From Maribacter huludaoensis (lineage in GTDB: Bacteria > Bacteroidota > Bacteroidia > Flavobacteriales > Flavobacteriaceae): 64,000 bases of DNA. The notes under the pieces were generated by a model that had not been told where the DNA came from, ran no database searches, and saw only the letters and a program-made list of their open reading frames with translations. The stretch's first letter is position 1. Every line of letters starts with the position of its first letter. Positions 13,115 to 30,932 of the stretch are shown here, one piece after another. The position numbers and the translations under genes are program-made. The stretch lies in assembly GCF_029350945.1 (NCBI RefSeq), contig NZ_JARKMS010000002.1:949376-1013375 (forward strand), in the 5' to 3' direction.

Positions 13115-13351
13115 ATGAAAATAATAATAGCAACAATCTTCATCATCTTTTTAAGCTTTACTGCTCAAGCACAAGACAATACATCAGATGTAAAAGTTGA
13201 AACTATTGAGATGGGCATCGTTACTGAAACTACATTTGAAGTCAAAGAAAACATTTCAACAGAAGTTGCTAGATTATACAAGTTTAAAAACTCAAGAGTT
13301 AAAAGAGATTTAAATTTTATAACCAAAGCGAACAAACCTAAAATGGCTTAG
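13115..13351 (+). CDS. Small secreted protein A (ARLY-KN-R motif family)
   Basis: The 78-residue protein has a signal peptide of 20 residues ending QAQ. An acidic, Thr/Val/Glu-rich middle follows (21-50), then a basic C-terminus with ARLYKFKNSRVKRDL at 52-66 and NFITK. Three other small proteins in this window (13877, 21629 and 30932 on -) share the same plan and the same C-terminal motif but differ in the middle. It has no operon partner: the flanks are 575 and 525 bp without other genes. The mature chain would be about 58 residues and exported to the periplasm or beyond. I do not recognise the family. A structural, signalling or antimicrobial peptide are all open possibilities. Confidence 0.8.
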   Translation: MKIIIATIFIIFLSFTAQAQDNTSDVKVETIEMGIVTETTFEVKENISTEVARLYKFKNSRVKRDLNFITKANKPKMA

Positions 13352-13778
13352 TCTTTTAGAATGAAGTATTAAGTAAAAAGTATTAACTACATAGTGTATA
13401 CGGATTATTAGAAAATAGAAAATAGAAGTTAGAAAATAGACTTCATAACAATTATTAATAGAGAATTTAGCGAAGCTAAATTTATTTCTAGTAACGGACA
13501 GCGGACAGCGGACAGCGGACAGCGGACAGCGGACAGCGGACAGCGGACAGCGGACAGCGGACAGCGGACAGCGGACAACGGACAACGGACAACGGACAAC
13601 CAAAATCTAATACTTCAATTTCCATTATTAAACTTACCTCTTGTAGTCCTTTTATCTATCACAAATGCAACTATGTAGGAAAAAGCTTATTAACTCGATA
13701 AACTGCACAAATACAACCAATAATAGGTCAATTTTTTGTAGGAAAACGGACTACAAAAACTGGTAGTACATCGAAATG
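13352..13778. other. Gene-free island between proteins A and B with inverted repeats
   Basis: Besides the heptamer array, I see a perfect 9-bp inverted repeat, TTTTTGTAG (13733-13741) and CTACAAAAA (13751-13759), with a 9-base spacer. TTGTAGTCC at 13641-13649 is also complementary to GGACTACAA at 13748-13756, so the same sequence can pair with two partners. No ORF with support is present on +. The long - strand frame here is a by-product of the array. Confidence 0.5.
13495..13599. repeat. Tandem array of 15 heptamers
   Basis: Eleven perfect CGGACAG units are followed by four CGGACAA units, 105 bp with no interruption. It is the most GC-rich patch in an otherwise AT-rich island. Both subtypes sit in blocks, as expected from slippage or unequal exchange. 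It lies between small secreted proteins A and B. Confidence 0.95.
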
Positions 13779-13813
13779 CATACTTTTCATCGTAAAAACC
13801 ATACCTCTTATCG
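13779..13813 (+). promoter_or_regulatory. Direct repeat at 21-bp spacing upstream of protein B
   Basis: CATACTTTTCATCG (13779-13792) and CATACCTCTTATCG (13800-13813) match at 11 of 14 positions and start exactly 21 bp apart, two helical turns. The pair ends 63 bp before the start of protein B. Two half-sites 21 bp apart are typical of LytTR response regulators such as AgrA; which regulator acts here is unknown. Confidence 0.5.
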
Positions 13814-13876
13814 AATTGAAAATACGTTTACTTACGGGTAGGTGGTTATCTATACACCAAATTTACCTACTTTATT

Positions 13877-14116
13877 ATGCGTACAATTATTTTTTTATTC
13901 CTTGTTATCTGTTTGGGAACCAAGTCCCAAGCACAATCGAAGTCACCAGATACGAAAGTACAGACCATTGTTATGCCCATGGCAGAAGTAGCAATTAAGT
14001 CTAACGTAAACACTCCCGGTTTCCAAACAGCTGCAAGGTTTTACACAGTCAAAAATGCAAGAATAAAACGTGCTTTACTTTTTAAGGCAAGGGTGAGAAC
14101 AGTTTCTTTTGCCTAG
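13877..14116 (+). CDS. Small secreted protein B (divergent member of the ARLY-KN-R family)
   Basis: The 79-residue protein has a 20-residue signal peptide ending SQAQ. A variable middle follows (SKSPDTKVQTIVMP; compare DVKVETIEMG in protein A), then a basic tail with ARFYTVKNARIKRALLF at 53-69. It lacks the FIT residues seen in A, C and D and is the most divergent of the four, but the spacing of the R, Y, KN, R and R-L-F positions is kept. Its last 4 bp overlap the end of the opposite SGNH esterase gene. An earlier in-frame start is not supported, because this ATG opens directly into the signal peptide. Function unknown. Confidence 0.72.
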   Translation: MRTIIFLFLVICLGTKSQAQSKSPDTKVQTIVMPMAEVAIKSNVNTPGFQTAARFYTVKNARIKRALLFKARVRTVSFA

Positions 14117-14850
14117 TTCAATTCTTCTACAAGTTTTTCGGTTACCTCTGTTCCCCCTTGAGGTAATACTATAGTTTTTAAAACATTCCAAACATTTTCG
14201 GTAACTATTCTCTGACCTTCTGCAGTTGGGTGAATACCATCTTCTAAGTTCAATTCAGGAATACAGGCAACACCCTCCAATAAAAACGGAATCAATTCTA
14301 TATCATTACTTTTTGCCAATGCAGGATACATCATTTTAAACTGCGAAGCATAATCTGCACCCATATTTGGCGGTATTTGCATACCGGCCAATATAATTTG
14401 TGTTTTGGGGTTTTTATCTTTGACCATATCGATCATGGCTTGCAAGTTGTTCATAGACTCCGTAATAGGAATTCCTCGCAATCCGTCGTTTGCACCTAAT
14501 TCCAAAACAAAAATATCTACCGGCTGATTTAGGACCCAGTCCAAACGGTTTAAGCCCCCAGAAGTAGTTTCACCACTTAATCCAGAGTTGATTACCTTGT
14601 AATCTAACCCTAAAGAATCTAATTTTAATTGAATTCTATTAGGAAAACCTTCTTTGGTATCTAAGCCATACGCAGCGGTAAGGCTGTTTCCGTAGAATAA
14701 AATTACTTTGTCATCGGCAGAAACAGCTTCTTTTTCAGGGCTGCTAACAGTTTCGGTTTGGGTGTCAGTTTGCTTTTTTTCTGACGTTTCTCCACATCCA
14801 ACGAACAACAACACCACTAAAAAATAACGAAACTTTAATACTTTCAACAT
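14113..14850 (-). CDS. SGNH/GDSL esterase lipoprotein, TesA-like
   Basis: The 245-residue protein has a lipoprotein signal with Cys19 (LLFVGC), a low-complexity linker (about 20-46) and an SGNH hydrolase domain. Block I is YGNSLTAAYG (nucleophile Ser56), block II has the Gly of SGLSGETTSGG, block III is GANDGLRG, and block V has the catalytic Asp and His in DGIHPTAEG. E. coli TesA (arylesterase/thioesterase I/lysophospholipase) is the closest well-known type. It is divergent from an ABC ATPase and an FtsX-like permease, exactly as tesA is from ybbA-ybbP in E. coli, which supports the assignment. As a lipoprotein it would act in the periplasm or outer membrane. Confidence 0.9.
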   Translation of the reverse strand: MLKVLKFRYFLVVLLFVGCGETSEKKQTDTQTETVSSPEKEAVSADDKVILFYGNSLTAAYGLDTKEGFPNRIQLKLDSLGLDYKVINSGLSGETTSGGLNRLDWVLNQPVDIFVLELGANDGLRGIPITESMNNLQAMIDMVKDKNPKTQIILAGMQIPPNMGADYASQFKMMYPALAKSNDIELIPFLLEGVACIPELNLEDGIHPTAEGQRIVTENVWNVLKTIVLPQGGTEVTEKLVEELN

Positions 14851-14912
14851 AGGCTTAACTTATTAGATTCCAAATCATTTGTTTATTTTGTTGTCTTGTA
14901 CCAAAATGATTT

Positions 14913-15602
14913 ATGACAAAGATATTAAACGTACGTAATCTAAAGAAAACGTATACCAGCGGATCTAAGAATTTGACGGTTATTGATGTTATTTCTTTTT
15001 CTATTGAAGAAGGCGACACTTTTGCTATCGTTGGTCCGTCAGGAAGTGGAAAAACAACACTGTTAGGCCTTTGCGCGGGATTAGATGAAATCAACGACGG
15101 AGTAATTGAACTTTGCGGTGAAGATTTAAGTAGTTTAAACGAAGATCAACGTGCTTTACTACGAAATGAGAAAGTAGGATTTATTTTTCAAGATTTTCAA
15201 CTACTGCCCACATTAACAGCCTTAGAAAACGTTAGTGTACCCTTAGAGTTACAGGGTGCAACCAATGCTTCTAAAGATGCAATGGAACTTCTGGACAAGG
15301 TAGGTTTAGGTAATCGTCATGACCATTATCCGTCTCAACTATCTGGTGGTGAACAACAGCGAGTTGCCTTGGCACGGGCATTTTCAAATAAACCCTCTAT
15401 TCTTTTTGCCGATGAGCCTACAGGTAATTTAGATGAAGAAACTGGAGAAAAGGTTATTAAGCTTTTGTTTGACCTGAATAAAGAAATGGGAACTACATTG
15501 GTGATTGTTACCCATGATTTAGAGCTGGCAAACCTGAACAAGCATGTATTGCGACTTAAAGGTGGTAAAATAGTAATTAACGAAACCACGGCTACATCTT
15601 GA
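14913..15602 (+). CDS. ABC transporter ATP-binding protein, YbbA/LolD-like
   Basis: The 229-residue ATPase has Walker A GPSGSGKTT at 41-49, the Q-loop FQDFQLLP, signature LSGGEQQR, Walker B ILFADEPTGNLD and the switch His in VTHD. This is the MacB/LolD class that pairs with FtsX-like permeases. The following permease gene starts at a TTG that overlaps this gene's stop by 4 bp, so the two are coupled. With the divergent SGNH esterase, the set matches E. coli tesA/ybbA/ybbP. The transported or extruded substrate is unknown. Confidence 0.95.
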   Translation: MTKILNVRNLKKTYTSGSKNLTVIDVISFSIEEGDTFAIVGPSGSGKTTLLGLCAGLDEINDGVIELCGEDLSSLNEDQRALLRNEKVGFIFQDFQLLPTLTALENVSVPLELQGATNASKDAMELLDKVGLGNRHDHYPSQLSGGEQQRVALARAFSNKPSILFADEPTGNLDEETGEKVIKLLFDLNKEMGTTLVIVTHDLELANLNKHVLRLKGGKIVINETTATS

Positions 15603-18151
15603 GTACAACACAAAGAACATCTAACGCATCATTTAATTGGCTTTTGAAAATGGCTTGGCGTGATGGTAAGGCAAGTGGCAAGCGCTTGTTACTTTTCATG
15701 GCTTCTATTATTCTAGGTATAGCCGCAGTTGTTTCAATTCAATCTTTTAGCGATAACCTAAAAGATAATATTGGTCTACAGTCAAAAGCACTCATGGGTG
15801 CAGATTTTTTAATTGATAGTAATCAGCCGGCAAATGACAGGGTAGCGGCATTAATGGATTCTTTAGGAGGGTATAATGCAAGAGAAGTCAATTTTGCCTC
15901 AATGGCGGCTTTCCCTAAAAGTCTAACTACAAAATTAGTACAGGTACGTGCCGTTGAAGGTGCTTTTCCTTTTTATGGAGCATTAGAAACTGAACCTGCC
16001 AAAGCTGCAAAAGAATACTTGAAAAAAGGCGGGGCATTAGTTGATGCTACGGCAATGCTTCAATACAATTTAAAACCTGGCGATAGTGTAAAACTTGGTA
16101 ACATTACTTTCCCTATTGTTGGGTCCTTGATTACCGCTCCTGGTAGCACAGGTATTGGTGCCACTGCAGCGCCACCTATAATTGTGCCTTTTCGCTTTAT
16201 GGAAGATAGCGGGCTCTTACAGCGTGGTAGTCGTCTAAAGTATAATTATTACTTCAACAATGACAAGGCAGATCTAGAAGCCCTGAGTAAAGATGTTGAC
16301 CCGTTATTAGATGCTGAGAATGCTGATATGGATACCCATACCGATACTAGTGAACGCCTGGGACGTAGATATGAAAATGTAGGTCGTTTTCTAAATTTGG
16401 TCGCATTTATAGCACTTCTCTTAGGGTGTGTTGGTATTGCCAGTTCTGTACATATTTATATAAAAGAAAAATTAAAGGCAGTTGCAGTGCTAAAGTGTTT
16501 GGGGGCAACTAGAAAACAGACATTTTTAATTTACCTGATCCAGATTGCTGGAATGGGCTTGTTAGGCGGACTCATAGGTACCATTATAGGATTGTTATTA
16601 CAACAGACTTTTCCGCTAATATTACAAGAGTTTTTACCATTTGAAGTAGAAATATCTACTTCATTTCAAGCCATATTCGTTGGGTTGTTACTAGGTGTTT
16701 GTATGTCGGTTTTATTTGCCTTGTCACCATTGATCCATACTTGGTTTGTTTCCCCTTTACAAGTATTGCGGGTGCAAGAAGATACTGGTAAAAAGGCAAG
16801 AACTTATCAAATTTGGGTAGTTGTTGCCATAGTACTTTTTATATTTTTATTCGCATTTTGGCTGTTGGGAAGATGGGCGTTCGCATTGAGTTTTGTAGGA
16901 GGTATATTGGTGACTTTTTCCATTTTAGCGGGTGTGTCTATTTTATTTATGCGATTGATAAAACGCTACTTTCCAAAATCATGGAGTTTTGCCGCTAGAC
17001 AGAGTTTGTTGAATTTATACCGACCGAATAACCAGACGGTAGTGTTGATTTTAGCTATTGGTATTGGAACATTTTTGATCAGTACATTATATTTTACAAA
17101 AGATTTTCTTCTGGCTAAAACTTCTTTCGAGGCAAGTGCCGAGAGTCCGAATTTAATTTTGTTCGATGTACAAACCGATCAACGTGATGCCGTGACAAAT
17201 ACCATTACCCCAAAAGGTCTTCCCGTTATAGATAATATTCCTATCGTTACAATGAGAATTGAGCGTATAAAGAATAGAAATGTAAATGACATTAGAATAG
17301 ATACTACTACCCGAGTGAACAAGTGGATTTTAAACCATGAGTTTAGAACTACGTATAGGGATTCCATGATCGGTTCAGAGAAACTATTGGAAGGGGAGTG
17401 GATGCCTACCGTAGACCCTAATGCAAAAATAATTCCTATTTCATTGGCAGAAAATGTTGCCAATGACGCTTTGGTAACCTTAGGCGATACATTGTTATTT
17501 AATGTTCAGGGAAAATTGATGACCACCGTTGTAGGTAATATCCGTCAGGTAGATTGGGCTAGAATGCAGCTCAATTTTTCTATCGTATTTCCAAAAGGTG
17601 TGTTAGAAAATGCACCACAGTTTCATGTGGTAACAACAAATGCCCCGGATAAAAAATCATCGGCAAATCTGCAAAGAGAATTGGTGAAGAAATTCCCCAA
17701 TGTATCGATCATAGATTTAAGACAGGTAGTAACCTTGGTCGAAGATATTTTAGATAAAATTTCATGGGTCATATCTTTTATGGCATTTTTCAGTATTCTA
17801 ACAGGAATTATCGTCTTGATCGGCTCCGTTCGTAACAGTAAATACCAGCGCATTCGGGAAAGTGTATTGTTAAGAACACTTGGTGCCCAGAGTAAACAGA
17901 TTTTAAAAATTAATGCCCTAGAATACTTTTTTTTAGGGGTTTTAGGAAGCGGAGTAGGGGTTTTACTTTCGTTACTAAGCAGCTTTCTACTCGCATATTT
18001 TATTTTCGATACGCCATTTATTCCGTCCTGGGTTCCATTTTTAGTTGTGTTACCGGGCATAACATTATTGGTCCTAGCTATCGGATTAATGAACAGTAGA
18101 GGGGTGTTAAATAGTCCGCCATTACAGGTACTGCGGAAAGAAGCAAATTGA
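15599..18151 (+). CDS. FtsX-like ABC permease, YbbP type
   Basis: The 850-residue protein has a helix near 30-50, a large periplasmic domain (about 50-260), three helices (about 265-390), two central helices near 405-455, a second periplasmic domain (about 510-710) and three C-terminal helices. This is the two-copy FtsX layout of YbbP-type permeases. The TTG start at 15599 overlaps the ATPase stop. The first in-frame ATG (15650, at MAWRD) is only 17 codons in. I prefer the TTG because FNWLLKMAWRD is the usual opening of the family, but the start is not certain. It forms an inner-membrane ABC complex with the preceding ATPase, probably acting on lipids or envelope proteins. Confidence 0.92.
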   Translation: MSTTQRTSNASFNWLLKMAWRDGKASGKRLLLFMASIILGIAAVVSIQSFSDNLKDNIGLQSKALMGADFLIDSNQPANDRVAALMDSLGGYNAREVNFASMAAFPKSLTTKLVQVRAVEGAFPFYGALETEPAKAAKEYLKKGGALVDATAMLQYNLKPGDSVKLGNITFPIVGSLITAPGSTGIGATAAPPIIVPFRFMEDSGLLQRGSRLKYNYYFNNDKADLEALSKDVDPLLDAENADMDTHTDTSERLGRRYENVGRFLNLVAFIALLLGCVGIASSVHIYIKEKLKAVAVLKCLGATRKQTFLIYLIQIAGMGLLGGLIGTIIGLLLQQTFPLILQEFLPFEVEISTSFQAIFVGLLLGVCMSVLFALSPLIHTWFVSPLQVLRVQEDTGKKARTYQIWVVVAIVLFIFLFAFWLLGRWAFALSFVGGILVTFSILAGVSILFMRLIKRYFPKSWSFAARQSLLNLYRPNNQTVVLILAIGIGTFLISTLYFTKDFLLAKTSFEASAESPNLILFDVQTDQRDAVTNTITPKGLPVIDNIPIVTMRIERIKNRNVNDIRIDTTTRVNKWILNHEFRTTYRDSMIGSEKLLEGEWMPTVDPNAKIIPISLAENVANDALVTLGDTLLFNVQGKLMTTVVGNIRQVDWARMQLNFSIVFPKGVLENAPQFHVVTTNAPDKKSSANLQRELVKKFPNVSIIDLRQVVTLVEDILDKISWVISFMAFFSILTGIIVLIGSVRNSKYQRIRESVLLRTLGAQSKQILKINALEYFFLGVLGSGVGVLLSLLSSFLLAYFIFDTPFIPSWVPFLVVLPGITLLVLAIGLMNSRGVLNSPPLQVLRKEAN

Positions 18152-18211
18152 GAAAAGCTTTTTCTGATATAAAATTGATGGTTGCATTATAAGTTTTCTA
18201 CCTTTAAAAAC

Positions 18212-19867
18212 ATGGGAAAGCAACTATTCTATTTGTTCATTATGTCGTTATTGTTATGTTCTTGTAGAACCAATAATGTAAAAGCCGATTTAATAATTAC
18301 CAATGCCAATATCTGGACCGGTAATTCAGACTTACCAAAAGCTGAGGCAATGGCCATAAAAGCAGATACCATTTTGGCCATTGGCTTATTTGATGATATT
18401 CAAAAGTTTAAAGGCTCAATTACTGAAATAAAAGATGTAAGCGGAAAATTTATTACACCAGGTTTTATTGATACTCATGTGCATTTATTAATGGGTGGTA
18501 ATAGCTTATTGAACGTAGCGTTGCGTGATGTTGATAGTAAAGAAGAATTCATAAATAAAATAGCATCGTTCGCTAAAGAAATAGAACCTGGTAAATGGAT
18601 CGTTGAGGGAAATTGGGACCATACCCTGTGGGGAGGTGAATTACCTAATAAAGATTGGATAGATGAATTTACGGGTGAAAATCCGGTTGCAATTTATAGA
18701 ATGGACGGTCATATGATTCTAGCCAACTCGGCAGCGCTAAAAATTGCCGGTATAGATGAGAATAGTCCTAAGGTAGAAAATGGAGAAATTGTTAAAAATA
18801 AAGATGGTATACCGTCAGGAATTCTTAAAAGTGAAGCCATGTATTTGGTTTTAAATAAAATTCCGGAGTTAACAATAACAGAAAAGGAAAAGGCAATTAG
18901 TGCAGCTCAAGATTATCTGGTTTCACAAGGGGTAACGAGTATTCATGATGTAGATAGTTTGGGTGGATATGAAATTTTAGAAAAAATGAATTTCAATGAT
19001 CAACTTAAGGTAAGGGTTTACACGGCCGATCCGTTGAAGTATTGGAAAACAACAACTAAAGATGAAAAAAACTCCAAATGGTTAAAGAACGGTCTTATGA
19101 AAGGCTTTGTTGACGGCTCGTTAGGTTCGCATACTGCAGCCTTTAAAGATCCTTATTCGGATAAGCCATCAGATAGCGGTTTATTTATTGTAGATAAGGA
19201 TAGCTTAAATACTTGGGTCATAAATGCGGATAAACAACAATTGCAGATTACCGTTCACGCAATAGGCGATTTGGCAAACAGCACCATATTAGATTTTTTT
19301 GATAGTGTTGTGGTTAAAAACGGAAAACGAGATAGGCGATTAAGAATAGAACATGCGCAACACTTGGCGGTAGAGGATATTGATAGATTTTCCAAACTTG
19401 ATGTCATTACGAGTATGCAACCCTATCATGCCATTGATGACGGTAGATGGGCTGAAGAGTTAATTGGACATGAACGGATAAAGACTACCTATGCTTTTAA
19501 ATCTATTTTAGATGCCAACACAACTTTAGTATTTGGTAGTGATTGGCCTGTGGCGCCTGCATCACCTTTATATGGGATTTATGCTGCCGTCACCAGAAGA
19601 ACTCTAGATGCCAAAAATCCTGATGGTTGGGTTCCTGAACAAAAAATAAATGTGGAACAGGCATTAAGAGCATATACTAAAGATGCTGCTTTTAGCTCTT
19701 TTGATGAAAATATAAAAGGCACTTTAGAACCGGGTAAATTGGCAGATTTTGTTATTTTAAAAGAAGATATTTTTCAAATTGACCCTACATCCATTAAAGA
19801 CGTACAAGTGTTGGAGACTTATGTTGGCGGTAAACGTATGTTTGTACATAGTGAGCTTTCTAAGTAA
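18212..19867 (+). CDS. YtcJ-like amidohydrolase lipoprotein
   Basis: I take the ATG at 18212, which opens directly into a lipoprotein signal (LLLCSC, Cys at about residue 18). A frame from TTG at 18182 would add ten odd residues. The domain is metal-dependent amidohydrolase of the YtcJ type: GFIDTHVHLLMGG (metal-binding HxH), a long insert, DGSLGSHTAAF, HAIGDLA, RIEHAQHL, FGSDWPVAP (metal Asp) and the closing GKLADFVIL. Length is 551 residues. Members hydrolyse C-N bonds of small molecules; substrate unknown. It follows the YbbP-type permease by 60 bp and may share its transcript. Confidence 0.9.
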   Translation: MGKQLFYLFIMSLLLCSCRTNNVKADLIITNANIWTGNSDLPKAEAMAIKADTILAIGLFDDIQKFKGSITEIKDVSGKFITPGFIDTHVHLLMGGNSLLNVALRDVDSKEEFINKIASFAKEIEPGKWIVEGNWDHTLWGGELPNKDWIDEFTGENPVAIYRMDGHMILANSAALKIAGIDENSPKVENGEIVKNKDGIPSGILKSEAMYLVLNKIPELTITEKEKAISAAQDYLVSQGVTSIHDVDSLGGYEILEKMNFNDQLKVRVYTADPLKYWKTTTKDEKNSKWLKNGLMKGFVDGSLGSHTAAFKDPYSDKPSDSGLFIVDKDSLNTWVINADKQQLQITVHAIGDLANSTILDFFDSVVVKNGKRDRRLRIEHAQHLAVEDIDRFSKLDVITSMQPYHAIDDGRWAEELIGHERIKTTYAFKSILDANTTLVFGSDWPVAPASPLYGIYAAVTRRTLDAKNPDGWVPEQKINVEQALRAYTKDAAFSSFDENIKGTLEPGKLADFVILKEDIFQIDPTSIKDVQVLETYVGGKRMFVHSELSK

Positions 19868-19972: not shown

Positions 19973-19997
19973 CAACTGAAATACAAAAGTTATTGTT

Positions 19998-21353: not shown

Positions 21354-21473
21354 GTTTCATTTATTTCAAATTAATTGATTTTATATTCTAAAAATAGAAT
21401 GTTCTTTTATACCCTAGTTTTAGGGCTGTTCTAAATTTTCAGCATTTAAAAACATCGATTAAATACACATCAA

Positions 21474-21530
21474 ATCGGTGTGGTGTTTTTAGGTCAAAAA
21501 CCATTCGTCGACACTTTTTGTCTATTCGTC
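21474..21530 (+). promoter_or_regulatory. Upstream element of protein C with 21-bp direct repeat
   Basis: The block at 21474-21511 is the counterpart of 12959-12996 before protein A. In addition CCATTCGTC (21501-21509) recurs as CTATTCGTC (21522-21530), 21 bp apart and on the same face of the helix. This is the arrangement of LytTR-type operators. It ends 98 bp before the start codon. ACATCGATT and AATCGGTGT (21452-21460 and 21473-21481) could also pair, so part of this region might double as a terminator of the helicase gene. Confidence 0.58.
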
Positions 21531-21628
21531 ATAGAATTTTACGCTAGGCGAAAATTATAGCAGTTTAGCGAGGGTAAGAGCCATTATCCTCTATCTGAAA
21601 CTACTTTTATATTGTTCAACATTACGAT

Positions 21629-21886
21629 ATGAAAGCATTATTCACCACACTAATAGTTATTTTCGCCGGCGCATTGGCACTGGCACAAACTCCCCAAACA
21701 GATGATAAAATTAACGCTACTGAAGTGGGTGTTGTTTTGGCTGATAGCACTGACAATATTAACCACGAAAAAGAGATTACTATCACTGATGAGACGTCGA
21801 TAGCACGCTTGTACAGATATAAGAATGCAAGGGTTAACAAAGAATTAGCTTTTATTACAGCTAAGGATTACGGTAAATTGGCATAA
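21629..21886 (+). CDS. Small secreted protein C (ARLY-KN-R motif family)
   Basis: The 85-residue protein has a 20-residue signal peptide ending ALAQ. The middle is acidic and polar (21-55; rich in T, D, N, E), then comes the basic motif ARLYRYKNARVNKEL at 59-73 with AFITA, and a short tail ending GKLA. It shares the motif with the proteins at 13115, 13877 and 30932 on -, and shares its upstream element with the protein at 13115. A possible 39-residue membrane peptide gene follows 52 bp downstream. I do not recognise the family; secretion is the only property I can support. Confidence 0.8.
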   Translation: MKALFTTLIVIFAGALALAQTPQTDDKINATEVGVVLADSTDNINHEKEITITDETSIARLYRYKNARVNKELAFITAKDYGKLA

Positions 21887-21938: not shown

Positions 21939-22058
21939 ATGATGTTACTTTCAATTTTAATACCAGCAGTTATCGTTATTGCAACAATTGCCTTTACTTC
22001 AAAAAATGAAAAAAAAGTACGTCCAATTAAAGTACCTGTAAACAAGCGTAAGTTTTAA
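21939..22058 (+). CDS. Possible 39-residue membrane peptide
   Basis: An ATG-ATG start opens a 39-codon frame ending TAA at 22056-22058. The product has a hydrophobic N-terminal half (LLSILIPAVIVIATIAF), then a strongly basic tail (KNEKKVRPIKVPVNKRKF). This is the topology of single-span microproteins with a cytoplasmic basic end. It lies 52 bp after small secreted protein C on the same strand and overlaps the stop of the opposite amidohydrolase gene by 4 bp. There is no Shine-Dalgarno, as is usual here. The regular composition argues it is real, but only comparison with relatives can confirm it. Confidence 0.5.
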   Translation: MMLLSILIPAVIVIATIAFTSKNEKKVRPIKVPVNKRKF

Positions 22059-23644
22059 TTTTTTACGCCAGGCTGCTTAATAGTATAATTACTTTTAGCT
22101 TTTGCCTTATCTACTTGGCGTTTAACATCTGCCAGTAGCGCTTTGGAATCATAGATGATTCCGTCTTTAATGGTGTATTTAACACCACCAACCCGAACCA
22201 CCTCATTGTCCTTGGTAAGTTTAATAGCTCCCGTACCATACAATACTTTGAAATTTTGTAGCGGATTTTCCTCAACAATGACAAAGTCTGCCAATTTGCC
22301 TATGGTTACCGAACCTAATTTGTCATCCAAACCTAATGCCTCTGCACCATTTAGTGTAGCAGATTGTATGATTTCTAAAGGATGAAACCCAGCTTCTCGC
22401 ATTAATTCCAGTTCTCTTATATAGGCAAAACCATATAATTGAAAAATGAATCTGGAATCTGATCCCGTGGTTACTCTACCACCTCTGTTTTTAAATTCAT
22501 TGATAAAGGTCATCCAAAGTTTATAATTTTTTCTCCAGGCAACTTCTTGTTCCGTGCCCCAATCATGCCAGTACGATCCATGAGATACTTTGCTAGGTTG
22601 ATAAAACTCCCATAAAGATGGCAATGTATAATCTTCATGCCATTCAGCTCTTCTTGCGCGCTGTAAATCTCTACTAGCCTCATATATGTTGAAAGTTGGG
22701 TCCAAGGTAAAATCAAGTTCCAATAATTCGTTCATTACGTTATTCCAGTGTTCGGAATAAGGCTGGGCCGCTTGTTCCCATAATTTTCCGGCATTTTCAA
22801 AACGATCTTGCTCGTTTTGGTAGTTGTAGTCCAACGGAAAATCTTGTACCGTTCTATCATCGAACAAAGCTTCTGGTAACCCGTACCAATGCTCCATAGA
22901 GGTTAATCCCGCTCTGGCGGAATGTAAAACATTCCAACGGGCAACGCTCATTTGCGCATGGTGGCATGCAGAACCTAATCCTAATTTCTTGTTCTCGTCC
23001 AATGCCGCTGCCATAATTGCCGGTTCGGCTCCAAAGAACTTAATACCGTCAGCTCCTCTTTTGGCATTGGCGCGTACCCATTCCCTAGCTTGTTCAGGAG
23101 TAGAAATAGGAATATCGTTCAACGGATTAAAAGATTTACTTGTTTGCCCGAAAGCAGTATAGGAAATAATACGCGGAGCAATGATTTCATTTTTTTCGCT
23201 TTTTCGTTTTAAGTCAAGCGTGACATCAATACCTCTACCGGCAACTTCACGGGCGGTAGTTACACCATGCGCCATCCAAAGTTTAAATACATAGTCTGGA
23301 TCAGCGCCTTGGGCATCACCGCCAATATGAGTGTGCATATCAATAAAACCGGGCATTAAGTACATACCGGTACAATCCAATTCTTTACCACCTGACTTTA
23401 ATTTTGGCCTCTTGGCCGCATCTATATCTACACCTGGATAACCAACCACCTTTATATTGGTGATCACATTGTTTTCTACAACAATGTCAATAGGTCCTTG
23501 TGGTGGTGCTCCGTTACCATTAATAAGCATTACGCCTCTAATGATCAATTGATCGTGGGGTCCGTCCCCTTCAAGAGATTGTGCTTGTATTGTAAACCAT
23601 ACGGATAAGAATAGAACTGGTAAGAGCAGATGTTTACGTAACAT
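22055..23644 (-). CDS. Exported amidohydrolase (imidazolonepropionase-like)
   Basis: The 529-residue protein has a signal peptide ending IQAQ (about residue 22) and an amidohydrolase domain: GFIDMHTHIGGD (metal HxH), a lysine-bearing stretch (GADGIKFFGAEP) for the bridging ligand, SACHHAQMS, SMEHWYG, TTGSDSRF with the metal Asp, and LGSVTIGKLADFVIVEENP. The enzymes cut C-N bonds in cyclic amides or dipeptides. Its secreted nature suggests a role in nutrient breakdown. It is a second exported amidohydrolase only 2.2 kb from the first (18212), but the two are not close paralogues by eye. Confidence 0.9.
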   Translation of the reverse strand: MLRKHLLLPVLFLSVWFTIQAQSLEGDGPHDQLIIRGVMLINGNGAPPQGPIDIVVENNVITNIKVVGYPGVDIDAAKRPKLKSGGKELDCTGMYLMPGFIDMHTHIGGDAQGADPDYVFKLWMAHGVTTAREVAGRGIDVTLDLKRKSEKNEIIAPRIISYTAFGQTSKSFNPLNDIPISTPEQAREWVRANAKRGADGIKFFGAEPAIMAAALDENKKLGLGSACHHAQMSVARWNVLHSARAGLTSMEHWYGLPEALFDDRTVQDFPLDYNYQNEQDRFENAGKLWEQAAQPYSEHWNNVMNELLELDFTLDPTFNIYEASRDLQRARRAEWHEDYTLPSLWEFYQPSKVSHGSYWHDWGTEQEVAWRKNYKLWMTFINEFKNRGGRVTTGSDSRFIFQLYGFAYIRELELMREAGFHPLEIIQSATLNGAEALGLDDKLGSVTIGKLADFVIVEENPLQNFKVLYGTGAIKLTKDNEVVRVGGVKYTIKDGIIYDSKALLADVKRQVDKAKAKSNYTIKQPGVKN

Positions 23645-23756: not shown

Positions 23757-24977
23757 TTAAGCAACTGGAGATAATTGTTGTTTGATTTCTTGGAACTTGA
23801 TGATGTAATTAGTTCCTTTTTTGGAATTATCGCGTTCTATTGTTCCGCGTAATTGTCGCGTAAGGTTATGAATCAATTTTAAACCTAAAGACTTTGTGTT
23901 TTTATGATTAATGGTTTCCGGAAAGCCGATTCCATTATCACCAATCTCAAGAATATAGCAGTTTTTTTGTTCACTATCTTTTCTAAGTTTAATACTGATG
24001 ATGCCTTCGTTATCGTTTTCTATACCATATTTTAAGGCATTGGTCAAGGTTTCATTAATTAAAAGCCCTAATGGAATTGCCGTGTCTATTCCCAATTTTA
24101 TATCGGGAATATCTATATTTAAATCAACATTGTTGTCGTTGCCCTTTATTGAACGAATTAAATATTCACCCAATTCCAACACATATGATTTGTATTCAAT
24201 GTGGCTAATATCATTACGCATATACAGCATTTCATGAACCATTGCCATTGCAATTACCCTATTTTGGGTTCCTTTTAACAAGCCTTTCATTGGGCCTGTT
24301 TCTATATTTCTGGATTGTAAGCTCAACAAACTGGAAACTGTTTGAAGATTGTTTTTTACTCTATGGTGAACTTCTTTTAAAAGATTTTCCTTTTCGTGTA
24401 CTTGGTTTGCCAGTGCCTTTTTTGAACTATACATGGCATTGTACGTTTTTAGCAATGTTTTTCCTAAAGTGTTTCCTAATATGAAAACAGCGAACAAAAC
24501 GGAAACTAAGCTAAAGACCGAGCTTGATTCTTCTGGAACCAAATTTTCTGTAACACGCAATTCAGGTATGTTCTGTGTAAAAACCAATAGTATTAGAACG
24601 GTTATAATATTAAAATAAACTTTGCCATATTTAGTACTATTAATAAAACCTCCAAAGGCGATCAACGGAATCATGAATATAAACGCACTGTGAATGCCAC
24701 CACTATATACAGTTACTATAACCGCTGTAATTAATCCTATTATAGAAGAAAAATTAAAGGTGGGTACTATATTTTTATGAGACCTGAAGTAAAGTAGATT
24801 AATAATGTTCAAGACGGCAAAGCCGACAAGGGCAAAAGGTATGATCTGAGTTATGTTCAAAAAGAAATAGCATAAAGCCCCAAAAAGAATGGAGATAATG
24901 CTTGTGGTATAATTTACCCTTAAAAATAGTTTGGTTTTATCCTGTAGACGTTCTTTGTCAATGGTAAATCCGGGCAT
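23757..24977 (-). CDS. Membrane sensor histidine kinase, HisKA_2 type
   Basis: The 406-residue protein has five or six N-terminal membrane helices (about 22-170), a short coiled linker, and a HisKA_2 dimerisation domain with HHRVKNNLQTVSSLLSLQS (phospho-acceptor His at 204/205). An HATPase domain follows, with N box LLINETLTNALKYG and G1 box EIGDNGIGFP. No response regulator is adjacent; it is an orphan in this window. Kinases with the HRVKNNLQ box often partner LytTR or HWE-type regulators, so a link to the 21-bp repeats upstream of the small secreted proteins is possible but purely inferred. Confidence 0.92.
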   Translation of the reverse strand: MPGFTIDKERLQDKTKLFLRVNYTTSIISILFGALCYFFLNITQIIPFALVGFAVLNIINLLYFRSHKNIVPTFNFSSIIGLITAVIVTVYSGGIHSAFIFMIPLIAFGGFINSTKYGKVYFNIITVLILLVFTQNIPELRVTENLVPEESSSVFSLVSVLFAVFILGNTLGKTLLKTYNAMYSSKKALANQVHEKENLLKEVHHRVKNNLQTVSSLLSLQSRNIETGPMKGLLKGTQNRVIAMAMVHEMLYMRNDISHIEYKSYVLELGEYLIRSIKGNDNNVDLNIDIPDIKLGIDTAIPLGLLINETLTNALKYGIENDNEGIISIKLRKDSEQKNCYILEIGDNGIGFPETINHKNTKSLGLKLIHNLTRQLRGTIERDNSKKGTNYIIKFQEIKQQLSPVA

Positions 24978-25240: not shown

Positions 25241-25270
25241 AAAATAGGCATCTATTTAGATGCCTATTTT
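25241..25270 (-). terminator. Rho-independent terminator of secA
   Basis: AAAATAGGCATCTA (25241-25254) and TAGATGCCTATTTT (25257-25270) form a long perfect stem with a tiny loop and A/T-rich ends, 21 bp past the secA stop. Confidence 0.85.
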
Positions 25271-25291
25271 AAACTTATGATTATATTAAAA

Positions 25292-28200
25292 TTAATCTTG
25301 TGTCAACACCCAAGATCCGTTTTGTAAAAGTGGTTCAGCTTGTTTAAATTTTACCGTTTTACTTTCGCCGCTCATTACATTTTTAATGGTTACACGCTCA
25401 TTTCTACCAATTTTTGGTTGTTCCCTGGTAATAGTTTCGGTAACCGAAGGTCGCTCAGCTTGATTTTGGCTTACTGCTCTACTACGTGCCGCTAACTCAT
25501 CACTATTTGGAATTTCCTCTTTAGTAGTCTTTAAATTTTCTTTGCGTTGTACATTTCTTTCTTCTTGAATGGCATTGGGGTTCTCAGAAGGCAACTCTCC
25601 TTTGAACAAGAAAGAAACTACATCTTTGTTTACTTTCTCTATCATAGATTTAAAAAGTTCAAATGCTTCGAACTTATAAATCAACAAAGGGTCTTTTTGT
25701 TCGTGGACCGCTAGTTGTACAGATTGTTTCAACTCATCCATCTTACGTAAATGTGTTTTCCACGAATCATCTATAATAGCCAATGAAATATTCTTCTCGA
25801 AATCTGTAATCAGTTGTTTACCGTTGCTGTCATAAGCTTCTTGTAGGTTGGTTACTACATTCAAACTTTTAATACCGTCTGTAAAAGGAACTACAATACG
25901 CTCAAAGTTATTGGCATTGTCTTCATGTACTTTTTTAATGACCGGAAAGGCTGCTGCAGCGTTGCGCTCCATTTTGTCGTTATAATGTCCGTAAGCTGCC
26001 TTGTAAATTTTGCCGGTAATTTCTTGAGCGGACAATTTGCCGAACTCAGCCTCATCTACAGGTGCCGTGATAGAGAAGTATTTGATCAATTCAAATTCTA
26101 AATTCTTATAATCACTGGCAGCTTTATTGCTTTCTACGATAACCTCACAGGTATCATATATCATATTGGCGATGTCAAGTTTTAATCGCTCGCCTTGTAA
26201 TGCATGGCGTCTTCTTTTGTAAACGACTTCACGTTGCGCGTTCATTACGTCATCATATTCCAACAAACGTTTACGAACGCCAAAGTTGTTTTCCTCCACC
26301 TTTTTCTGAGCACGTTCAATAGATTTTGTCATCATGCTGTGTTGAATAACTTCACCATCTTCCAAGCCCATTTTGTCCATCATTTTGGCGACCCTGTCAG
26401 AACCGAACAAACGCATTAGGTTGTCTTCTAAAGAGACGTAGAATTGAGAACTACCAGGATCTCCTTGACGACCAGATCTACCACGTAACTGTCTGTCAAC
26501 ACGACGAGAGTCATGTCTTTCCGTACCTATGATCGCAAGACCCCCCGCTTTTTTAACGGCATCAGATAATTTAATATCGGTACCACGACCTGCCATGTTG
26601 GTCGCTATGGTTACAACACCGGCGTTACCGGCCTCAGCAACTACATCTGCTTCTTTCTTGTGAAGTTTTGCGTTAAGTACATTATGAGGAACTTTACGAA
26701 CACTCAATAATTTTGATAGTAATTCTGATATTTCTACAGAAGTTGTACCGATCAATACAGGTCTGCCCGCTTGACTTATTTTCGTTACTTCTTCTATAAT
26801 AGCATTATATTTCTCTCTTTTTGTTTTGTAGATAAGATCATTTTTGTCTTCTCTTGCAATAGGTCTGTTGGTAGGAATTTCCATTACATCTAGCTTGTAA
26901 ATTTCCCAGAATTCACCAGCTTCCGTTACAGCGGTACCTGTCATACCCGCAAGTTTACGGTACATTCTAAAGTAGTTCTGTAAAGTAACGGTTGCAAAAG
27001 TTTGTGTCAACGCTTCAATTTTCACGTTCTCCTTTGCTTCAATTGCCTGATGTAATCCGTCAGAATATCTACGGCCGTCCATAATACGTCCCGTTTGCTC
27101 ATCTACGATCATTACCTTATTATCCATAACCACATATTCGGTATCCTTTTCAAATAAGGTATAAGCTTTTAATAATTGGCTCATGGTATGAATACGCTCG
27201 CTCTTAACGGTGAAATCTTTAAAAAGCTCTTCTTTTAGTTCAGCTTCTTTTTCAATTTCAAGATTTTGATTTTCAATCTTCGCAATTTCTGCACCTATGT
27301 CCGGCATTACGAAGAAATCTTTATCCTGCTCGCCAGAAATATAATTTACCCCTTTGTCCGTCAATTCAATTTGGTTGTTCTTTTCGTCAATTACAAAAAG
27401 TAAATCTTCATCAACAACCGGCATTTCCCTGTTGTTGTCCTGCATATAATAATTCTCTGTTTTTTGAAGTAATTGTTTTACTCCTTCCTCACTTAAGAAT
27501 TTTATTAAGGCCTTGTTCTTTGGTAATCCACGATATACTCTTAATAATAAGAAACCACCTTCTTTTGTATCACCTTCGGCAATTAATTTTTTAGCTTCTG
27601 CCAAAACACCGGTTAAATGTTGGCGTTGTTTTCTAACGATTTCATCGACCTTTGGTTTTAACTCGTTGAATTCATGACGGTCACCTTCCGGTACAGGACC
27701 TGAAATGATAAGAGGTGTACGTGCATCATCTACCAAAACAGAATCTACCTCATCGACCATGGCATAGTTATGTGGGCGTTGTACCAAATCTTTTGGTGTG
27801 TGCGCCATATTATCCCTTAGATAATCAAAACCGAATTCATTATTAGTTCCGTATGTAATATCTGCATTGTAGGCAGCACGTCTACCATCTGAATTTGGTC
27901 TGTGGTAATCTATACAATCTACTGTTAAACCATGAAATTGAAAAATAGGTGCCATCCAAGCACTATCCCTTTTTGCCAAATAATCGTTTACGGTTACCAA
28001 ATGCGCGCCATTACCTGTTAAAGCGTTAAGGTATAAAGGTAACGTGGCCACCAATGTTTTACCCTCACCTGTTTGCATCTCTGCAATTTTACCTTGGTGC
28101 ATGGCAATACCACCAATAAGCTGAACATCATAATGTACCATGTCCCAAGTAACTTCTTTACCTGCGGCGTTCCATGAATTTTTCCAAATTGCATTGGCGC

Positions 28201-28651
28201 CTTCTAGGGTTACATAGTCTTTTGTGGCAGATAACGTTCTGTCATATTCAGATGCCGTTACTTGTAGAGTCTCATTATTTGCAAAACGCTTAGCGGTTTC
28301 TTTGACCACTGCAAAGGCTTCCGGTAATATTTTGTTTAACGTGTTCTCGGAAATAGTGTAGGCTTCTTCCCTTAATTTATCTATTTCAGTGTAGATATCT
28401 TCGTTTTTATCAATGTCTGTAGAGTTTTTTACCTCTTCTTCCAAAGCATTGATTTGATCCGTTTTTTCTTTTATAGATTCTTTGATAGCCTCTTTGAACG
28501 CTATGGTTTTCTGCCTAAGTTCATCATGGCTAAGACTTTCCAATTTAGATTCGAAGGTTTTTATTTGATCTACCAAAGGCTGCAATTCCTTTACATCTTT
28601 TTGTGATTTGTCACCAACGAATGCCTTTAGTATGGAATTAATGAAACTCAT
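25292..28651 (-). CDS. secA: Preprotein translocase ATPase SecA
   Basis: The 1119-residue motor drives unfolded proteins through SecYEG. Visible features include [20 protein letters not shown] (Walker A), [37 protein letters not shown] and [10 protein letters not shown]. It is longer than E. coli SecA (901) because of insertions typical of Bacteroidota, for example around 340-480. The C-terminus reads [12 protein letters not shown] and ends in SWVLTQD: the usual zinc-binding CPCGSGKKYK tail is missing. Monocistronic with a strong terminator. The ORF start at 28651 gives the standard opening ([19 protein letters not shown]). Confidence 0.97.
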
Positions 28652-28805
28652 ATATTTTAATCTATTAGAATTGAAGCTTTTCTATCAGGTACTATCATAA
28701 GAATAGCTTTCAAATATTTTATTATCGATGCTCATAAAGAGCAAAAGGTATTCCAGTCTTGATTTTTAGACCAATTTACCTAAGAACCTGTCAAAATTAC
28801 ATAAA

Positions 28806-28831
28806 AAAAAAGCCTCCGAAGAGACTTTTTT
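28806..28831 (-). terminator. Terminator of the DUF2795 gene, UUCG tetraloop
   Basis: On the - strand AAAAAAGTCTC, TTCG, GAGGCTTTTTT forms an 11-bp stem (one G-U pair) closed by the very stable C(UUCG)G loop and followed by more T. It lies 22 bp past the stop at 28854. Confidence 0.85.
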
Positions 28832-28853
28832 GTAGATATTATAATATCGAATA

Positions 28854-29078
28854 TTAATATTCGTCCTCGTTCCAGAGGTAATCTTCTTCCGTTGGATAGT
28901 CGGGCCAGATCTCTTCGATAGATTCATATATTTCGCCACCTTCTTCTTCCATAGATTGTAAATTTTCTACAACTTCAAGAGGGGCTCCAGTTCTGATGGA
29001 GTAGTCTATTAACTCATCTTTACTTGCCGGCCAAGGTGCATCACTTAAATAAGATGCTAATTCTAATGTCCAATACAT
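28854..29078 (-). CDS. DUF2795 family small protein
   Basis: The 74-residue protein fits DUF2795: MYWTLELASYLSDAPWPASK, then DELIDYSIRTGAPLEVVENL and a strongly acidic tail rich in E, D, W and Y. Members are small, soluble and very common in Bacteroidota and elsewhere, sometimes resembling a degenerate DNA-binding fold, but without proven function. It sits alone upstream of secA with its own tetraloop terminator, so it is an independent unit and probably highly expressed. Confidence 0.88.
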   Translation of the reverse strand: MYWTLELASYLSDAPWPASKDELIDYSIRTGAPLEVVENLQSMEEEGGEIYESIEEIWPDYPTEEDYLWNEDEY

Positions 29079-29208
29079 AGTAATTTTTTGATTTTAATTT
29101 TTTGCAAAAGTAATTTTTAAATTTAAACAGCAAAATAAATAGTAATAAAATTCAGTTTATCAATATCTTTTTTCGCATTTATTAATTGATAACGAATAAA
29201 TTACGGAT

Positions 29209-29787
29209 TTATTGGTCCTTTTTTTTAGGAACCCATTTTATTTCATTTGCTTGTAAATCATATGACAATTTTCGTGCCAATACAAAGAGATAATCTGAAA
29301 GTCTATTAAGAAAAGATAACACATTTTTATCAAACGGTTCGTTTTCGTGTAATAATGTTGAAATGCGTTCCGCCCTGCGACAGATGGTACGGGCAATATG
29401 ACAGTATGACACTGTGGTATGGCCACCCGGAAGAATAAAATGGGTCATTTGTGGTAGTTGTGTGTCCATGGTATCAATAGCATTTTCCAAAAAATTAATT
29501 TCATTGGTGCCTACTTTGGTTATTTTTAAACGCTCAGTACCATTTTTAAGCATTTTTTTTTCAGGATTTGTTGCCAAAATTGCACCAACGGTAAATAGAT
29601 GTTCTTGTATGGCAATTAGCTGATGCTGGTAAATAGGGTCAATATCCTGATCTCTTATGAGTCCTATCCAAGAATTTAGCTCATCTACCGTACCGTAACT
29701 GTCAATACGTATATGATGTTTTGGTACGCGTGTGCCACCAAATAGTCCGGTAGTTCCGTCATCACCTGTTTTAGTATATATTTTCAT
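29209..29787 (-). CDS. PduO-type ATP:cob(I)alamin adenosyltransferase
   Basis: The 192-residue protein begins with the diagnostic KIYTKTGDDGTTGLFGG (ATP site) followed by IDSYGTVDELNSWIG, and has the cobalamin-site helix ARTICRRAER near 140-148. It makes adenosylcobalamin from cob(I)alamin and ATP in the cytoplasm. This cofactor serves methylmalonyl-CoA mutase, whose chaperone MeaB is encoded at 5.5 kb, and possibly other B12 enzymes. A 49-residue membrane peptide gene lies 73 bp upstream on the same strand. Confidence 0.95.
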   Translation of the reverse strand: MKIYTKTGDDGTTGLFGGTRVPKHHIRIDSYGTVDELNSWIGLIRDQDIDPIYQHQLIAIQEHLFTVGAILATNPEKKMLKNGTERLKITKVGTNEINFLENAIDTMDTQLPQMTHFILPGGHTTVSYCHIARTICRRAERISTLLHENEPFDKNVLSFLNRLSDYLFVLARKLSYDLQANEIKWVPKKKDQ

Positions 29788-29860
29788 TTAGATCGGGTTT
29801 AGGAAAGAAGTAAGGTTAAAACTAAGGTTAACATAAATGTCCAAAATAGTAACGCGGCTT

Positions 29861-30010
29861 TTATTTTTTGTCATCCTTGTTTTTTCTTTCATAATCTCCC
29901 ATGAATTTTCTGGATTTTCGGTCTTTTGATTTTCCTTTACTGGTAATACGTATGGCCAAGTAGATAGCGAAAACGATACCAAGGGTTATATAGATGGAAT
30001 TACTGCTCAT
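29861..30010 (-). CDS. 49-residue single-span membrane peptide
   Basis: The ATG at 30010 opens a 49-codon frame ending TAA at 29861-29863. The product is MSSNSIYITLGIVFAIYLAI, then a basic tail (RITSKGKSKDRKSRKF). It contains one membrane helix (about 6-21) and a cytoplasmic, very charged tail. A longer frame overlapping it on the same strand (29788-29982) has no helix or regular composition and is a shadow of this one. The peptide may be co-transcribed with the adenosyltransferase gene. Short proteins of this plan are common in Flavobacteriaceae but I know no function. Confidence 0.65.
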   Translation of the reverse strand: MSSNSIYITLGIVFAIYLAIRITSKGKSKDRKSRKFMGDYERKNKDDKK

Positions 30011-30040
30011 TAAGATTTGCTTTAGTCTAAAATTACTGGT

Positions 30041-30535
30041 TTAAATCCGTATTTTAAAATGTTCCTTTACTTGCTCTTTTCTAAAGAACACCGCTCCACA
30101 ATAAAACATGTCTATTGTAACGGTCACGTTATTATTGGTTTTAAGCCTTTCCCAACTATCATGATTTTTTTTGTTCTTATGTATGCCGTCTAAAAGAAGC
30201 ATACTGTCATTAGGTAATTTGCTCAAGTCTAAATTGATTCCTTTTAGGTCATTGATGGTTGCTATTAAAATATCTGCATTGTTCTCTACAAAAGTTATAT
30301 GCGAACATTTTTTTTTTATAATTTCTTTGGATGTCCTATAGTCGCCTACCAGAAAAATTGACTTGTACTTGAAGTAGTTTATACTCTTTACACTAACTTT
30401 TAATGTTGTAGCAAGCTTTAATCCTGTCTTTTGATAAAGACATTTAGTAATGTAATCATACACAAATGGTGAATGCACTCCGTGCTGATTTTTAGAAGTA
30501 AGAAGAAATTTAATGTAAGATATAAAATGAAACAC
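30041..30535 (-). CDS. Shortened SAM-methyltransferase-like protein
   Basis: This 164-residue protein opens with IKFLLTSKNQHGVHSPFVYD, which I recognise from a family of flavobacterial putative SAM-dependent methyltransferases of about 230-240 residues, and ends in the matching MFYCGAVFFRKEQVKEHFKIR. Between them the expected glycine-rich SAM motif (E/DxGxGxG) is replaced by IFLVGDYRTSKEI, and roughly 70 residues are missing. No frameshift or stop is visible. It is probably a decayed or repurposed methyltransferase that has lost cofactor binding. It stands alone, 30 bp from the small membrane peptide gene (different reading frame). Confidence 0.65.
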   Translation of the reverse strand: MFHFISYIKFLLTSKNQHGVHSPFVYDYITKCLYQKTGLKLATTLKVSVKSINYFKYKSIFLVGDYRTSKEIIKKKCSHITFVENNADILIATINDLKGINLDLSKLPNDSMLLLDGIHKNKKNHDSWERLKTNNNVTVTIDMFYCGAVFFRKEQVKEHFKIRI

Positions 30536-30671
30536 TGATTACCTTTTCAATTTTTTGTCAAAAATAAAGATTGTCGTTAAACTAAGTTTAATTTTTGAAT
30601 TTGTATTTAAAAAGTAGGTAATGGTAAGAATTTGGATAGGTGTAAGAGAGGGGACGAAAAAGGATTTTTAA

Positions 30672-30932
30672 TTAGGATAGTTTGGCATCATTTAGTTTTG
30701 TGATGAATTCTAAAGCCCTAATTGCTCTATGGTTTTTGTGCTTGTGTAATCTTGCAACTTCAATCGTATTTTCAGTTTCCATAGTTGCTACATTAATATC
30801 GTTGATTTCAATTGTATGAACCAATTCTATTTGTGCAGTTTCAATTTCCAAAGAAACATTCTCATTGTTAGCCTGTGCTTGAGCGAAGAAACATGTAAAG
30901 AAAAGAGCGGTTAAAAGAACAATTGATTTCAT
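30672..30932 (-). CDS. Small secreted protein D (ARLY-KN-R motif family)
   Basis: The 86-residue protein has a 20-residue signal peptide ending QAQ. An acidic, isoleucine/threonine-rich middle follows (21-57), then ARLHKHKNHRAIRAL at 60-74, EFITK, and the tail DAKLS. The motif aligns without gaps to those of the proteins at 13115 and 21629, with H for Y. The gene is alone on -, between the methyltransferase-like gene and the ABC-F gene, with its own upstream TTCGTC-type elements (30982-31039). Function unknown. Confidence 0.8.
   Translation of the reverse strand: MKSIVLLTALFFTCFFAQAQANNENVSLEIETAQIELVHTIEINDINVATMETENTIEVARLHKHKNHRAIRALEFITKLNDAKLS

Follow-up and report, generated by a model that had tools for sequence, protein, structure and literature searches.

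Four small genes in the window, a 64,000-nucleotide stretch of the genome of Maribacter huludaoensis, very probably belong to a regulon of exported peptides with a LytTR-like promoter. Their products, here called P1 to P4, resemble prepropeptides in their anatomy, with a signal peptide, a variable and mostly acidic spacer, and a cationic C-terminus. As to function, a tentative interpretation, given somewhat less than an even chance, is that these peptides are made under, and probably feed back on, an envelope circuit of LytTR and HisKA_2 proteins. Its parts differ in strength: the chances that the regulon is governed by the conserved REC-LytTR protein discussed below are evenly balanced, and an action of the peptide on the circuit is plausible at a slightly lower level. 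The four genes are as follows:

13115 to 13351, plus strand: P1, 78 residues, with signal peptide, acidic spacer and conserved cationic C-terminus
13877 to 14116, plus strand: P2, 79 residues, a divergent member with a relative in the same-genus genome G075 (L052)
21629 to 21886, plus strand: P3, 85 residues, the copy near a six-transmembrane (six-TM) kinase
30672 to 30932, minus strand: P4, 86 residues, an open reading frame (ORF) of the family

The original prediction had placed four ORFs of these lengths at these positions and had taken their products to be homologous through a C-terminal motif; both statements hold. An alignment of P1 to P4 has nine invariant columns, seven of which (A, R, K, N, R, L and F) lie inside the motif, and profiles recover further members in the same genome and in 31 others. 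The family of M. huludaoensis was put at four members; all four are real, and the genome has seven. Besides the four in the window, there is a tandem pair encoding an identical protein on contig C10 (429245 and 429933; E 1.4e-27 each with a profile of P1 to P4) and one leaderless member on contig C8 (54258-54371; E 2.5e-7 with the same profile).

Family anatomy was measured on 75 distinct sequences, a set that includes near-identical tandem copies and one leaderless member; export was judged by eye from the N-terminus. Mean pairwise identity is 0.62 over the last 27 residues, 0.28 over the spacer and 0.54 over the signal region, and motif positions 2 and 17 are R and F, respectively, in every sequence. 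The mean net charge is -3.7 for the spacer, which is negative in 67 of the 75 members, and +8.8 for the C-terminus, which is positive in all of them. The acidic middle described earlier for all four proteins does not hold for P2, whose spacer is, by eye, not net negative. In 13 of 13 pairs, pN (nonsynonymous differences) is below pS (synonymous differences), and C-terminal pN/pS is below 0.3 in 12 of them, the P2 pair being the exception at 0.5; the pairs were chosen by hand, and several have saturated synonymous sites. The 27-residue cationic C-terminus is under strong purifying selection.

No Pfam-A or NCBIfam family matches P1 to P4 above its cut-off, in keeping with the earlier statement that the family was not recognised; the best Pfam hit, DUF4969, reaches 20.6 bits against a cut-off of 31.4, and TIGR03927 is matched by one of ten members (E 9.4e-4). 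The phage-borne and leaderless members described below likewise have nothing above the Pfam and NCBIfam cut-offs. Across Pfam, NCBIfam, PHROGs and PDB sequences, the only match retained is PHROG 26162, a profile of 59 positions with no assigned function, which is matched over part of its length, at about positions 23-53, by the family sequence P0005 (E 3.3e-6) and by a leaderless paralogue (E 7.9e-6); the likeness lies in the C-terminal motif. At a guess, the Maribacter or Cellulophaga phage genes may belong to this PHROG. A PDB sequence match to chloroplast L24, with a best E of 0.32, was taken as chance. Among the papers listed by literature searches, none deals with the family.

At E<=1e-3, a profile of six members from the own genome matches 43 of the 199 Flavobacteriaceae genomes scanned. 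Eleven of these were dropped, their best matches (E 1.8e-5 to 9.3e-4) being confined to the N-terminal part of the profile, and the family was retained in 32 genomes, the own genome counted. With a broader profile, 395 genomes of the order gave 33 matches at E<=0.01, of which 13 have E<1e-6 and are all in Flavobacteriaceae; the remaining 20, with best E values of 4.3e-4 to 0.0099, were not inspected individually. Among the best 80 of 211 relatives, the named genera are Zobellia, Maribacter, Arenibacter, Eudoraea, Muriicola, Pricia, Kriegella, Pseudozobellia, Ulvibacterium, Saonia, Pareuzebyella, Aurantibacter and Pelagihabitans. So far, the bacterial family appears to be confined to one group of flavobacteria, the relatives of Zobellia, Maribacter and Arenibacter.

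Within the 32 genomes, as many as four copies stand in one tandem array and as many as eight in one genome, which bears out the expansion proposed earlier. Tandem copies include the promoter and are spaced about 690-765 bp apart. Genome G050 carries seven near-identical copies with promoter in two arrays (C2:219633-221333 and C2:350660-353052) and one more on another contig, which points to recent amplification. The family is neither without relatives in Flavobacteriaceae nor free of selection on its frames, the two outcomes that the original prediction had taken to speak against it. These comparisons support the view that the tiny, apparently exported proteins form an undescribed family in expansion, and the earlier interpretation as a whole is partly supported; the promoter module, the co-occurring regulator and kinases, the membrane micropeptide, the phage members and the leaderless paralogue are new.

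The 200 bp upstream of the family genes are conserved between genera. R1, an upstream module of about 185 bp with phased boxes resembling LytTR/AlgR sites, was modelled from sequence only, using 36 hand-picked promoters that include those of P1 and P3. Their consensus reads ATCGATTAAANACAC, then TTTCGGTAAG, GTTTTT, CGTTTATCGATG, TTTTTTACACTTNATCCGA, TACCGAAAAATA and TTTCAGCGA, then GTTTTATTTATATAA and AAGTC-ATG. A pattern search found both of the first two boxes in 18 upstreams, with a spacing of 20 bp in 17 of them, and the first box lies 49 bp from a TTNRYCGR box in 18 of 26. The promoter elements of the window are the following:

12936 to 13117, plus strand: R1 module of P1 (117.9 bits, E 8.9e-36)
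21448 to 21631, plus strand: R1 module of P3 (71.5 bits, E 2.1e-21)
13768 to 13817, plus strand: divergent box array 5' of P2, read by eye as ACATCGAAATGCA / TTCATCG / TTATCGA, with no R1 match
31012 to 31020, minus strand: exact AlgR core site CCGTTCGTC 5' of P4, at -88, with no R1 match

R1 distinguishes the genomes that carry the family from those that do not. Every one of the 32 family genomes has a best match at E<=7.5e-10, and none of the 167 others does; there the next best is 2.3e-7, and 33 genomes have weak matches (E 2.3e-7 to 9.1e-4). Judged by eye from the coordinates, the strong matches abut family genes in all 32 genomes. The box CGTTYRTCGA, allowing one mismatch, occurs in 43 of 57 non-redundant family upstreams (shuffles: mean 2.9, maximum 8), which argues for LytTR-type boxes in the promoter. 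CCGTTCGTC is described as the core site of AlgR, a LytTR-type regulator, in PMC4064291; it is also found upstream of the G075 relative. Of the 57 upstreams, 23 have a perfect TAnnTTTR, comparable to the -7 consensus TAnnTTTG given in PMC9723704, within their final 60 bp, most often 27 bp before the ATG. The idea that R1 also drives unrelated genes of the own genome was dropped: in a scan that scored 150 of 2047 first-look candidates, the four strong matches are all at family genes, and 15 others are weak (E 0.003-7.5). Rfam has no match in the window between 11000 and 33000 or in 20 regulator loci.

The own genome has 14 LytTR genes. The candidate regulator (L080/L325), a REC-LytTR protein by domain scan, was picked from these 14 loci for the clustered boxes adjoining it in a pattern scan and for its neighbour kinase, which is the sole other own-genome match, at E<=1e-20, of the six-TM kinase of the window:

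23757 to 24977, minus strand: HK6TM, a kinase with HisKA_2 and HATPase_c domains, about six hydrophobic segments by eye and no sensor domain recognised by Pfam

Co-occurrence of orthologues was computed for this regulator alone among the 14. An orthologue at least 78% identical is present in 32 of 32 family genomes; four of the 167 others have one at 60-75%, after which identity drops to 46%. The neighbour kinase combines TPRs, judged periplasmic by eye, with a HisKA_2 core in both the own genome and G057. Among the matches listed, a kinase domain lies <=5 kb from the regulator in 30 of the 32 genomes, the exceptions being G050, where the two are 22 kb apart, and G037, which could not be resolved. 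HK6TM itself is found in 31 of the 32 (E<=6.7e-67) and in two of the 167 others, G077 and, more weakly, G060. A divergent peptide near the kinase relative was expected in these two genomes, and none was found there.

Promoter and regulator locus share some elements. Of 57 family upstreams, 31 contain the box YCGAYNAANNRC[AC], against a shuffle mean of 0.32; it is likewise present in 14 of the regulator-kinase gaps, of which 28 of the 30 available were used (shuffle mean 0.31). R1 reaches only E 7.5 at the regulator locus, on the other strand. A two-box pattern has 25 matches in 13 genomes, compared with three for the reversed control. In other genomes, related box arrays (loci L162, L164, L166 and L188) were also seen 5' of SprF/PorP-like genes, at L162 and L164, and 5' of further apparently exported-protein genes, all named by recognition. 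Judging from these arrays, the boxes may be part of a broader regulon in flavobacteria. In 23 of 28 cases, the gap between the regulator and the next gene (L104-L133; L325:3896-4301 in the own genome) carries direct repeats of the CACAACA type in pairs. Sixteen of 30 such gaps contain a conserved AGTGTTCTC element, mostly in the form TTCATTTTCATATAGTGTTCTCGTAAAAG with a hairpin and a T run behind it; the element resembles a short RNA ending in a terminator.

Phages carry the family as well. P0005 matches 13 phage records: eight from Maribacter phages (Molly/Colly), at 48% identity over residues 1-71 (E 2e-7), and five from Cellulophaga phages, at 34-36% (E 0.06-0.1), which are weak on their own and are supported by the retained motif VVRVYKDKDYKIKRELSF. 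The three phage genes that were translated are annotated as hypothetical (L281:2501-2698, L282:3549-3728 and L283:2917-3096) and have, by eye, a signal-peptide-like start; R1 has no match in these three regions. Scans of viral contigs added contigs resembling the same phages, and two further scans added none. In Maribacter phage Molly_1, a gene for a matrixin-family metalloprotease lies three genes downstream of the family gene. The leaderless paralogue, of 53-59 residues, lies in four genomes, the own genome (G000), G075, G152 and G164 (own copy and L277-L279), between genes that we take to be metG and a DUF1501-like gene. The own copy is at C8:54198-54374 (L280:1699-1878). Similar matches exist in G555 and G564, where the gene context was not read.

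A further small gene accompanies some copies of the family, including one in the window:

21939 to 22058, plus strand: TM39, a 39-residue micropeptide with a single transmembrane segment and RPIKVPV near its C-terminus, following P3

TM39 starts 52 bp past the stop codon of P3 on the same strand, and homologues follow family genes elsewhere. The earlier description of each family gene as standing alone, outside any operon, accordingly fails for one of the four. A strict pattern, which does not fit the window's own copy, finds a TM39-type ORF within 160 nt downstream of 13 of 208 distinct family genes; TM39 thus follows a minority of copies. A profile built from these 13 and the window copy recovers 33 distinct sequences (E<=8.5e-5) across the loci examined. 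In 24 of them, a family frame ends <=115 nt upstream on the same strand, and for the other nine the family frame is farther off or none is recorded. The profile finds no TM39 in the G057 loci or in the six loci of family-free genomes.

The neighbours of the family genes were compared by BLAST clusters between 20 loci and the window, and six window proteins were scanned with Pfam. The neighbours in the window are:

25292 to 28651, minus strand: SecA, as we take it to be by recognition, the anchor of the locus
22055 to 23644, minus strand: amidohydrolase, a recurrent neighbour, by neighbourhood comparison and domain scan
11856 to 12539, plus strand: M23 peptidase, a recurrent neighbour on the other side, by the same two methods

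Of the 21 stretches, 14 have HK6TM. At loci with both SecA and the family, a typical order is SecA, kinase (one to three copies), M14, amidohydrolase, family, ABC/TesA, family, M23 and MsrA. Six SecA loci of family-free genomes have neither HK6TM nor the family. Relatives of M14, M23 and MsrA lie near SecA in some of these six genomes, so they are probably background neighbours; amidohydrolase, TesA and ABC permease received no label in the six loci. In three of the six, a gene for a desaturase-like protein of 421-425 residues (by recognition) adjoins SecA, where the family-bearing clade has HK6TM. G057 keeps such a gene together with the family and has no HK6TM, which suggests that the family probably predates the kinase. 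The loci with the desaturase-like gene beside secA are L155-L157 and L140. Between P1 and P2, the heptamer GGACARC is repeated in 15 tandem copies at 13496-13600.

Taken together, promoter, regulator, kinases and phage copies are most simply accounted for by an exported peptide that is produced by a LytTR/HisKA_2 envelope circuit and reports to it. The boxes would be LytTR sites, and the REC-LytTR protein would be served by its neighbour TPR-HisKA_2 kinase; in most genomes, the six-TM kinase, which has the same type of HisKA_2 core, would serve it as well. Once exported, the peptide would act in the periplasm or outside the cell, where its C-terminus may report to one of these kinases, either as a feedback modulator or as a peptide signal. 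TPR domains often bind peptide ends, and such binding would agree with the nearly constant length of the C-terminus. Phages, finally, would use the peptide to adjust the circuit of the host to their own advantage, and their copies stand under other upstream sequence, as would be expected in that case.

Several observations weigh against this interpretation. In the window itself, P2 and P4 have no R1 match, and their upstreams are divergent. The AlgR core CCGTTCGTC is exact in only four of 57 family upstreams (shuffle mean 0.17) and occurs with up to one mismatch in eight (shuffles: mean 1.9, maximum 5). CAACA repeats, present in 23 of 28 regulator-kinase gaps, are found in none of 75 family upstreams, and the regulator's own sites may therefore differ. 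By hand count, 11 of the two-box matches fall at family promoters, one at the regulator and 13 elsewhere, five of the last in three family-free genomes; the boxes are thus not private to the family. Four genomes (G030, G060, G077 and G096) have the regulator and no family match better than E 0.008. In G057, whose assembly is fragmented with 8% contamination, the regulator is accompanied by four family genes and R1 promoters, and HK6TM was not found, which implies that the six-TM kinase is not required. In six of the 31 genomes with HK6TM, the match covers the catalytic half only, in frames of 294-304 residues; in G050, HK6TM is on a different contig from the family. Copy numbers of family and HK6TM, counted by hand in 31 genomes, do not increase in parallel (Spearman correlation -0.29, p 0.11). 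An AlphaFold model of one member has C-terminal helices at low confidence (pLDDT 62) and no confident fold. A C-terminus conserved between genera is unlike familiar pheromones, which diversify.

The co-occurrence is, moreover, largely that of one clade: 30 of 30 genomes with SecA at least 82% identical to that of the window carry family, promoter, regulator and kinase. Below this value, the family is present in G150 (81%) and G057 (78%) and absent from G094, G077 and G096 (80-81%). Fisher tests ignore this clade structure and overstate independence. G057, the six unmatched sensor halves and the copy numbers weaken HK6TM as an obligate partner. To judge from the genomes compared, the constant partner appears to be the regulator with its TPR kinase, rather than the six-TM kinase.

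The main rival, unlikely but deserving of serious attention, is an envelope-active cationic peptide whose acidic spacer quiets the basic C-terminus until export. The 27-mer would then bind lipopolysaccharide, peptidoglycan or the membranes of competitors, in a self-protective or antimicrobial role, and the two-component system would set its dose only. The charge pattern of C-terminus (+8.8) and spacer (-3.7) is explained equally well by this rival and by a peptide reporting to the circuit, and the near-identical copies, eight in G050, suggest dosage. Against it, conservation of the C-terminus extends across genera, the leaderless paralogue has been kept, a bacteriocin would be of no obvious use to phages, and no recurrent immunity or modification gene was recognised beside the peptide genes at the loci compared, unless TM39, which follows some copies, is one.

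Improbable, though it would suit the about six hydrophobic segments of HK6TM and its lack of a recognised sensor domain, is a pheromone of the quorum type, passing from cell to cell by way of this kinase as in Agr or ComCDE. Peptide genes near the kinase, the LytTR-like promoter and the phage-borne copy agree with it; the failure to find HK6TM in G057, the sensor half unmatched in 6/31, the lack of a recurrent dedicated processing or export gene recognised at the loci compared and the little divergence of the presumed active part do not. Less probable again is a structural component of surface or matrix, or a small exported nucleic-acid-binding protein, with no role in signalling: the basic C-terminus and the related boxes 5' of SprF/PorP-like and other exported-protein genes fit, whereas phage carriage and kinase linkage are left unexplained. 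A mobile or selfish repeat carrying a small ORF is very improbable, since purifying selection on the protein (pN/pS) and the recurrent syntenic position speak against what the tandem copies including the promoter might suggest; terminal repeats and transposases were not searched for.

The undescribed family is accompanied by a highly conserved promoter module, by candidate partners (a regulator and kinases) and by a micropeptide of the membrane, and phages have a version of it. Zobellia and Maribacter, among other marine flavobacteria that can be cultured, would allow its role to be tested directly. If the peptide is a signal, it would represent a peptide circuit in a phylum for which the top-ranked literature gave none.

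Among known systems, AgrBDCA and ComCDE have in common with the proposed circuit a multi-TM kinase, a LytTR regulator and LytTR-like boxes at the peptide genes (partly after PMC8895600). A LytTR regulator is likewise present here wherever the peptide occurs, in 32 of 32 genomes, mostly of one clade; a multi-TM kinase that is always present and linked is not found, given G057, G050 and the 6/31. The proposed circuit also differs from both in its HisKA_2 kinases, its Gram-negative host, its conserved rather than diversifying peptide, a regulator gene unlinked to the peptide genes in the own genome, and the lack of an AgrB-like or ABC processing gene recognised in the BLAST clusters of the loci compared. 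With AlgZR of Pseudomonas aeruginosa, it shares the core site CCGTTCGTC, exact 5' of P4 and with related boxes 5' of many copies (PMC4064291). The targets are different. CpxP and MgrB are small exported or membrane proteins, and the family may resemble them in that it may modulate the kinase of the very system that possibly controls it; unlike them, it is multi-copy and phage-borne, and we know of no sequence relation between them. The RRNPP and arbitrium systems also pair a TPR protein with a small peptide that has a conserved C-terminal end and phage versions, whereas here the TPRs belong to a histidine kinase, of which they are judged to form the periplasmic part, and peptide binding is putative. 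At its fullest, an extension that we consider doubtful, the proposal would be a circuit of Bacteroidota in which prepropeptides under LytTR boxes are read by the periplasmic TPR domain of a HisKA_2 kinase and also by a six-TM kinase that has a membrane micropeptide as its partner. Phages would bring along a peptide gene of this family and so adjust the circuit of the host, in the manner of arbitrium-type peptides in firmicutes but through a kinase of the cell envelope.

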